Below the pieces are notes generated by a model that was not told the DNA's origin, ran no database searches, and saw nothing but the letters and a program-made list of their open reading frames with translations. The translations under genes and the position numbers were made by a program. This document shows positions 7,793-47,573 of a DNA stretch of 64,000 nucleotides, one piece after another. The DNA is from Acuticoccus sp. MNP-M23. Its GTDB lineage: Bacteria; Pseudomonadota; Alphaproteobacteria; Rhizobiales; Amorphaceae. Position 1 is the first letter of the stretch, and each line of letters begins with the position of its first letter. The DNA is taken from contig NZ_CP133480.1 in the NCBI RefSeq assembly GCF_031195445.1, positions 3,650,501 to 3,714,500 on the forward strand. Reading direction: 5' to 3'.

Positions 7793-9868
<2,076 letters not shown>

Positions 9869-9910
9869 TAGTCATCGCCAACTGCTACCGGCAATGATAA
9901 ACGAACGCCG

Positions 9911-9924
9911 CCCGGACGTCCGGG
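9911..9924. repeat. Palindrome in the fusA-tuf spacer
   Basis: The perfect 14-bp palindrome CCCGGACGTCCGGG can be extended outward by further G-C/G-T pairs. No T-tract follows. It may act as an RNA hairpin that adjusts fusA versus tuf mRNA levels; this is inference. Confidence 0.6.
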
Positions 9925-9982
9925 TGGCCCGATCAATGATCTAGCGTCAGCGCCAGACCAAGACGAATGTGGAGAATCGCCA

Positions 9983-11173
<1,191 letters not shown>

Positions 11174-47062: not shown

Positions 47063-47293
47063 TCAGAACAGGTCCGGCAGTTCGTCCGCGCCCTTGTAGG
47101 TCCACTCGACCATGGCCGCGTCCTTGTCGCCGGGGTTGTAAGTCCACTCGACCATGGCCGCGTCCTTGCCGCCGGGGTTGTAGGTCCACTCGACCATGGC
47201 TGCGTCCTTGCCACCGGGACTGTAAGTCCACTCGACGAAATCGATCGAGTTATCTTCGTTGATCGGCGCAAAGGATTTTGAGAAATTCTTCAT
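47063..47293 (-). CDS. Tandem-repeat peptide of unknown function
   Basis: 76 residues from MKNFSKSFAPINEDNSIDF. This leader-like segment is followed by three 14-residue units VEWTYxPGxKDAAM and a final partial unit VEWTYKGADELPDLF. GGAG lies about 10 nt before the ATG. A start farther upstream (to 47488) is possible, but its extra residues look non-coding. The repeat is conserved at protein level with few substitutions (S/N at one position, G/D at another). The layout, an acidic leader plus repeated aromatic/Gly/Pro units, resembles precursor peptides of ribosomally made natural products, but no modifying enzyme or exporter is adjacent. It is convergent with ftsB and divergent from pdhA. Function unknown. 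Confidence 0.6.
   Translation of the reverse strand: MKNFSKSFAPINEDNSIDFVEWTYSPGGKDAAMVEWTYNPGGKDAAMVEWTYNPGDKDAAMVEWTYKGADELPDLF
47095..47238. repeat. 42-bp direct repeat, about 3.4 copies
   Basis: Units begin at 47095, 47137 and 47179, with a partial fourth at 47221. The period of 42 bp corresponds to the 14-residue protein repeat. Differences between units are mainly single bases. Confidence 0.95.
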
Positions 47294-47573
47294 TGTAGGT
47301 GCACTCCAACTGAAAATGCCGACGTTCGCCGGTACGGACGAAATTGTGACGACAAGCGGACTTTTGAAGTGATCCACCGCGGCATACCCGCAAACCGTGA
47401 CCGGCATCACGCTGGCGACAGGGCCGTGTGCAACGCATCGCGCTGCCCGTCTGCGATCTCGCTGTGACCGCTGCGGCGGCATGTGCACACGATTGACGCG
47501 AGAGATGACCTTTTACCGAGCGGTCCGGTGAGCTAGTGTCCAGAATCTATAGAGACGACTGAGTGCGGGGAAA

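Follow-up and report, generated by a model that had tools for sequence, protein, structure and literature searches.

A small gene at positions 47063 to 47293 of the window, a 64,000-nucleotide stretch of the Acuticoccus sp. MNP-M23 genome, encodes a 76-aa peptide with four copies of the pentapeptide VEWTY. It is one of four related genes in the genus Acuticoccus, all of which carry the motif and lie behind two palindromic sites whose starts are 31 bp apart. We tentatively favor, at somewhat below even confidence, that the ORF is a genuine small gene under its own control, driven by an activator and encoding a lineage-restricted peptide that would show VEWTY to one partner in trans. As a sequence-based case, the gene is now better supported than could be known to the sequence-only reading that had pointed it out, because relatives were found and a tandem operator is shared among them. 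The features of the locus, listed in the direction of the gene, are the following.

47428-47441, minus strand: outer operator-like site GCGATGCGTTGCAC, with 2 mismatches of 8 to GTGA-N6-TCAC
47397-47410, minus strand: inner operator-like site GTGATGCCGGTCAC, an exact match that starts 31 bp from the start of the outer site
47343-47348, minus strand: possible -10 element CACAAT, placed by the position of its AAT relative to the inner site and not called by the sigma-70 scan
47304-47307, minus strand: GGAG, likely ribosome-binding site, read from the sequence 10 bases before the ATG
47063-47293, minus strand: small gene for an acidic VEWTY-repeat peptide of 76 aa, with ATG at 47293 and stop codon TGA at 47063-47065 (translation and relatives)
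47237-47293, minus strand: N-terminal segment of 19 residues ahead of the first VEWTY, with a loose likeness to the relatives by eye (aromatic, K/T, S/A, P)
47195-47236, minus strand: unit 1, VEWTYSPGGKDAAM (repeat finding and translation)
47153-47194, minus strand: unit 2, VEWTYNPGGKDAAM (repeat finding and translation)
47111-47152, minus strand: unit 3, VEWTYNPGDKDAAM (repeat finding and translation)
47096-47110, minus strand: fourth VEWTY, a partial unit (repeat finding and translation)
47066-47095, minus strand: C-terminal tail KGADELPDLF; the relatives end in DFDLF, GDEFF and PIAFM

Translation of the ORF yields 76 residues followed by a stop codon, in the layout MKNFSKSFAPINEDNSIDF-(VEWTYSPGGKDAAM)(VEWTYNPGGKDAAM)(VEWTYNPGDKDAAM)-VEWTY-KGADELPDLF, i.e., 19 residues at the start, then three units of 14 residues, the fourth VEWTY and 10 residues as the tail. 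The in-frame 42-bp repeat, with its three complete units and one partial unit as described from the letters, was confirmed with Tandem Repeats Finder, which reported an array at 47094-47236 (period 42, 3.4 copies, 92% matches, 0 indels, score 237); of the three arrays that it reported for the window, the other two have scores of 65 and 80. The units differ mostly at third codon positions, with four differences at position 3 and one at position 2 between units 1 and 2, one and one between units 2 and 3, and three and two between units 1 and 3. The N-terminal segment, which had been called acidic and leader-like, is present but is only mildly acidic (K, K vs. E, D, D); over its full length, the protein is clearly acidic, with 6 K + R and 14 D + E. 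The ORF could be extended in frame up to a GTG at 47488. The ATG at 47293 was taken as the start codon, since the operator pair lies inside this extension and the GGAG precedes the ATG.

The peptide had been described as unknown, with a repeated aromatic unit, and both points held: the proteins with the motif have no match above cut-off in Pfam or NCBIfam, and the VEWTY copies recur. The nearest NCBIfam model was acyl carrier protein, which has a cut-off of 65 and scored 23.9 bits on the 253-aa relative from Acuticoccus yangtzensis JL1095. In PHROGs, a database without cut-off, the best value was 0.025 for the window peptide, and the repeats of the 253-aa protein reached 0.00043 and 0.0013, in each case to proteins of unknown function. 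The best matches in the PDB had E-values of merely 3.2 and 3.6, and the one Rfam match around the gene (E 0.89) lies outside it and far under the gathering score. Searched against its own genome, the window peptide matched only itself. The string VEWTY was not found in a literature search, and it is on such searches alone that the family is called undescribed here.

The sequence-only reading had made a homologue in related genomes a test of its proposal, and relatives were found in three further genomes of the genus. A protein search of 101 genomes matched the alphaproteobacterial MAG JAUIJH010000158 (E 1.3e-7) and A. yangtzensis JL1095 (E 2.9e-7), with the next best match, outside the genus, at 0.011; 33 of the 101 genomes were matched at E <= 10, and those beyond the relatives were treated as chance and were not singly inspected. 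The relative in a further Acuticoccus genome (G004) was recovered via the DNA word for VEWTY, which had its sole match in this 5.5-Mb genome at the gene; VEWTY words in four other genomes (G003, G005, G012, and G015) fall in unrelated frames. A profile built from the four relatives and run against 397 genomes of the order gave E-values of 1.5e-23 to 1.8e-30 for the carriers, and nothing below 0.041 elsewhere; 16 non-carrier genomes appeared at 0.04-0.44, which were likewise treated as chance and not singly inspected. The gene is thus carried by four of the eight genomes of this marine genus that were searched, namely those of the window (G000), A. yangtzensis (G002), G004, and the MAG (G007), where one of the four negative genomes (G001) is 89% complete and in 550 contigs. 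Neither of the two sister-genus genomes searched has a relative. A named genome scan, from which the window's own record is possibly absent, resulted in 15 stretches, of which two are the relatives in A. yangtzensis and MAG JAUIJH010000158, and the remaining 13 were rejected (nine out of frame, one in a 30-aa frame and three in long proteins). No match was obtained among plasmids with the window peptide and the 253-aa protein as queries, nor among phages with the window peptide as sole query, and none of seven pattern stretches in viral contigs was confirmed. As far as the searches show, the relatives would form a fast-evolving family limited to Acuticoccus. One of the three long proteins from the named genome scan, in a Saprospirales MAG (L087, 364-414, minus strand), contains VEWTY twice, nine residues apart, in an unrelated 847-aa frame, which was taken as chance.

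The 14-residue unit that had been proposed as the repeated element is not what the family keeps. [VL]EWTY occurs four times in the window peptide, once in G004, twice in the MAG and five times in A. yangtzensis, where two copies read LEWTY, and the copies are separated by linkers of 5 to 19 residues; none of the other relatives has the 14-residue spacing seen in the window. Several VEWTY copies are preceded by D/N-A/G-A-M/L. All four proteins are acidic (net charges of -8, -9, -11, and -38) and none contains cysteine. Among the 12 motif copies, the 49 between-genome pairs differ within EWTY at 0, 0, and 61 sites of codon positions 1, 2, and 3, respectively, a split that is partly circular because the copies were picked by the motif. 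The syntenic gene of G004 provides the stronger point, as compared with the window gene it has kept a single VEWTY, the DLF end and some short likeness at the N terminus, and little else. Judged from these comparisons, the conserved unit is VEWTY and not the 14-mer.

The A. yangtzensis relative (L032, 10042-10866, minus strand) has 253 residues, with five EWTY copies behind a YLKLDG repeat block. In all, six YLKLDG repeats and one YFKFDG are present in it. A stretch of the same protein, LSDLDFLIGGG, is reminiscent of the double-glycine leader consensus.

In the window, the plus strand carries a glmS-like gene (with glutamine amidotransferase and SIS domains), a DUF502 gene, glyQ (PF02091), a DivIC/ftsB-type gene (PF04977), pdhA (PF00676), and pdhB, and the peptide gene lies alone and in the opposite direction within the gap between ftsB and pdhA. 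The G004 relative occupies the same gap, whereas that of the MAG is flanked by a TPP-enzyme gene and a semialdehyde dehydrogenase gene and that of A. yangtzensis lies at yet another place; together the four relatives are found in three gene neighborhoods. With the peptide gene, the gap measures 558 and 544 bp; without such an ORF it measures 219 bp in A. yangtzensis, 206 bp in G003, 416 bp in G005, and 526 bp in G006, a comparison that leaves out the MAG, whose gap lies outside the view, and G001, in which ftsB was not found. In these four gaps without the gene, no exact GTGA-N6-TCAC is present.

These loci bear on two readings in which the peptide would have no role. According to the first, the gene is a young orphan ORF that has no function, its 42-bp repeat being prone to slippage and kept by chance behind a real regulatory site. 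Its occurrence in a single genus, the lack of a match in four of the eight genomes and the low overall similarity of the relatives would suit this idea, but the motif and the operator geometry are constant over the three neighborhoods, and VEWTY was kept in the syntenic G004 gene though most else changed; we regard it as improbable. According to the second, the operator would act on the divergent pdhA, with the peptide gene as a bystander. At three of the loci (the window, G004, and the MAG), the operator does separate the peptide gene from a metabolic gene that runs divergently. However, the neighbors vary (pdhA, the TPP-enzyme gene, and, in A. yangtzensis, a gene upstream in the same orientation), whereas the distance between the inner site and the peptide ATG remains within 100-136 bp, and the four pdhA gaps without the gene have no exact site. 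We give this reading hardly any credence.

The operator itself consists of two GTGAY-N4-RTCAC palindromes upstream of each of the four EWTY genes. The outer and inner sites start at -148/-117 in the window, -167/-136 in G004, -150/-119 in the MAG, where the outer site has 1 mismatch, and -131/-100 in A. yangtzensis. At spacing 31, the best pairs of the four genes have 2, 0, 1, and 0 mismatches of 16. When six upstream regions were considered, i.e., those of the four EWTY genes, which had not been chosen by operator, and two from the sister genus, which had been found by it, and with two pairs of related loci among the six, the summed mismatches amounted to 5 at spacing 31 and to 25-35 at each of the 40 other spacings between 20 and 60. 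With at most one mismatch, the pair was found in 8 of the 397 genomes of the order, and a reversed-pattern control in 1 of 397. These eight comprise A. yangtzensis, G004, and the MAG with their EWTY genes, the two sister-genus genomes (G008 and G009), and G078, G183, and G364; in five of them the pair stands at short genes of this bacterial family. The window pair, the weakest among the EWTY genes, was missed at this threshold, because it has 3 mismatches by the full pattern. Allowing up to three mismatches, 25 places were obtained in ten genomes of the family (the four EWTY genes, the two sister-genus sites and 19 others), eight of the matches being in the window's genome, and the reversed pattern gave 2 places, both in G001. 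Seven of the 19 other loci were viewed for ORFs, and no repeat peptide was noticed among them.

In five of the six upstream regions, the exception being A. yangtzensis, an AAT is located 65-67 bases from the start of the inner site, which was reached in 0 of 5,000 shuffles, for an element that was spotted after inspection. A simple sigma-70 scan called no minus-strand promoter in the region upstream of the peptide gene. If the AAT is part of a -10 element, the operator would lie upstream of the promoter, as expected for an activator. Taken as sequence features, the operator pair and the promoter-like element at a fixed distance argue for transcription of the gene. One terminator-like site is located between operator and ATG (47332-47319), where 0.8 are expected by chance. 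Hairpins after the stop codon were set aside as evidence for terminators, with shuffle z-scores of -1.33 in the window and -1.09 in the MAG.

From the half-sites of GTGA-N6-TCAC, the regulator is presumably of the CRP/FNR class. CRP class III promoters carry tandem sites, and the loci described here resemble them: both GTGA-N6-TCAC sites fall on the same face of the helix and apparently ahead of the promoter, the outer site of the window having 2 mismatches of 8. They differ in that the 31-bp pair was found in 8 of 397 genomes of the order at <=1 mismatch and that the regulator is putative. A literature search resulted in no on-topic work on tandem CRP sites at 31 bp and in none on GTGAC with CRP-like regulators in Alphaproteobacteria.

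In the sister genus, this pair stands ahead of a short ORF of another kind. In G008 and G009 (L065 and L066, about 1190-1550), it is found at -145/-114 and -147/-116 before ORFs of 60 and 71 aa, which are 41% identical to each other and unlike the EWTY peptides. After the short ORF (xLPxLGxxGKGRRAA...) comes a Gly-rich protein that contains CTGCADPN and is encoded divergently from glyQ; by its sequence, it probably has a signal peptide and is exported. Neither of the two has a Pfam match. Besides G008 and G009, 20 of 297 genomes were matched in a search with the short ORF, the best being G162 (2.6e-6) and G150 (9.9e-5), and we think that these matches are chance, less surely so for G162. Five of the loci were viewed, and no tandem operator within 3 mismatches was present.

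Under the favored reading, a CRP/FNR-type activator would bind the two palindromes upstream of the promoter, and 31 bp, about three helical turns, would bring both onto one face of the DNA. This dedicated activator would switch on a short, acidic, cysteine-free and probably disordered peptide. AlphaFold2, supplied with the four-sequence alignment, gave a mean pLDDT of 43.4 with strands only at low confidence, a value that fits a disordered peptide and is no proof of disorder. The working part would be the pentapeptide VEWTY on spacers of free length, recognized in trans by one predicted partner protein, which would bind rather than modify it, and the copy number (1 to 5) would set dose or avidity. 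A known class of proteins displays repeated short linear motifs on disordered spacers. The VEWTY peptides are alike in their invariant short motif, in linkers that are free in length and sequence and in their acidic background; [VL]EWTY is present in all four proteins, an agreement that is partly circular, because the G004 relative was found by the motif.

The leader-like start and the repeated unit also suggest a multi-core RiPP precursor, in which the N-terminal segment guides a distant enzyme acting in trans, W-T-Y is crosslinked or modified in each copy and the linkers are cleaved. The leader-plus-core anatomy with its changing copy number speaks for this, and the microviridin precursor AMdnA offers a precedent in which several cores in one precursor are processed by a single enzyme, AMdnC (PMC5934393). 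Like such precursors, the VEWTY peptides are short and ribosomal, with an N-terminal segment and several copies of a short unit in variable number; unlike them, the four VEWTY loci have another core, no biosynthetic cluster and no recognizable processing sites.

The search for an enzyme of this kind covered the surroundings of the genes, SPASM proteins and MvdD-type ATP-grasp enzymes. The earlier statement that no modifying enzyme is nearby was correct for the window, where the neighbors are glyQ, the DivIC/ftsB-type gene, pdhA, and pdhB; at the MAG locus, the neighbors are the TPP enzyme and the semialdehyde dehydrogenase, and no enzyme gene is common to the four loci. The only candidate was a 429-aa gene about 26 bp behind the peptide gene of A. 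yangtzensis (L032, minus strand, within 8726-10138), which speaks for the RiPP reading by position. It looks SET-like, although Pfam does not show SET and no Pfam family reaches its cut-off. As a common modifying enzyme it was rejected, since no match exists in the other seven genomes of the genus, and a search of 198 other genomes gave a single distant match (G150, 27% identity). No SPASM protein was found in the window's genome or in the MAG (the control rang in 8 of 14), and the matches in A. yangtzensis and G004 (L117, L118) are PqqE (TIGR02109, above cut-off). MvdD-type ATP-grasp was found in none of ten genomes, but no control genome rang either. Since all four relatives are without cysteine, lanthionine and sactionine chemistry is disfavored, as for lanthipeptides and sactipeptides, and a recurring cleavage site in the linkers was not seen. 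PqqA, the precursor peptide of the pyrroloquinoline quinone system to which PqqE belongs, has E-x3-Y. VEWTY likewise offers E and Y in a short peptide, with PqqE present in A. yangtzensis and G004; the differences are that E and Y stand three apart and that SPASM was not found in the window's genome. The RiPP reading has thus lost ground, as the four loci have no enzyme gene in common and the window's genome yielded no SPASM protein; it is weakly supported, and we consider it unlikely. The interpretation of the sequence-only reading as a whole is partly supported.

A combined version, which we also judge to be improbable, would make the peptides a new multi-core class in which an enzyme in trans joins or alters W and Y of each VEWTY, with the tandem-site regulator controlling a different peptide in the sister genus, so that a family-wide regulon of fast-changing peptides would be run by one fixed switch.

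The alternation of hydrophobic and polar residues in V-E-W-T-Y, like that of a short strand, brings up a secreted or surface-exposed, beta-rich repeat peptide, released by type I secretion, with an acidic-hydrophobic tail at the C terminus, or forming a functional amyloid. The tails DLF, DLF, EFF, and AFM and the repeated IDLYLKLDG/VDFYLKLDG stretches of the A. yangtzensis protein are in line with it. On the other hand, the G004 relative has only one motif, a regular solenoid is poorly compatible with linkers of 5-19 residues, the predicted strands are of low confidence only, and no Sec-like signal peptide was seen by eye; for secretion genes, the view was limited to the immediate neighbors. 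This seems rather improbable to us.

Returning to the favored reading of a motif-displaying peptide under a dedicated activator, a fixed switch over rapidly changing small peptides would be a clean case for how new small genes gain control and function. Should VEWTY be bound or modified by a specific partner, the copy series 1, 2, 4, and 5 in sister species would be a natural experiment, and the operator offers an easy experimental handle, which the peptide alone does not.

Furthermore, five dispersed elements were observed in the window's genome, in which a GTGAY-N4-RTCAC palindrome is immediately followed by a hairpin-like stretch (GTGAAGATGACGAAGCCGTCATCATCTTCAA and variants), at G000:C1:1319667, 1986629, 2031095, and 2723735 and at G000:C3:37234. 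By their sequence, they are possibly a repetitive extragenic element.
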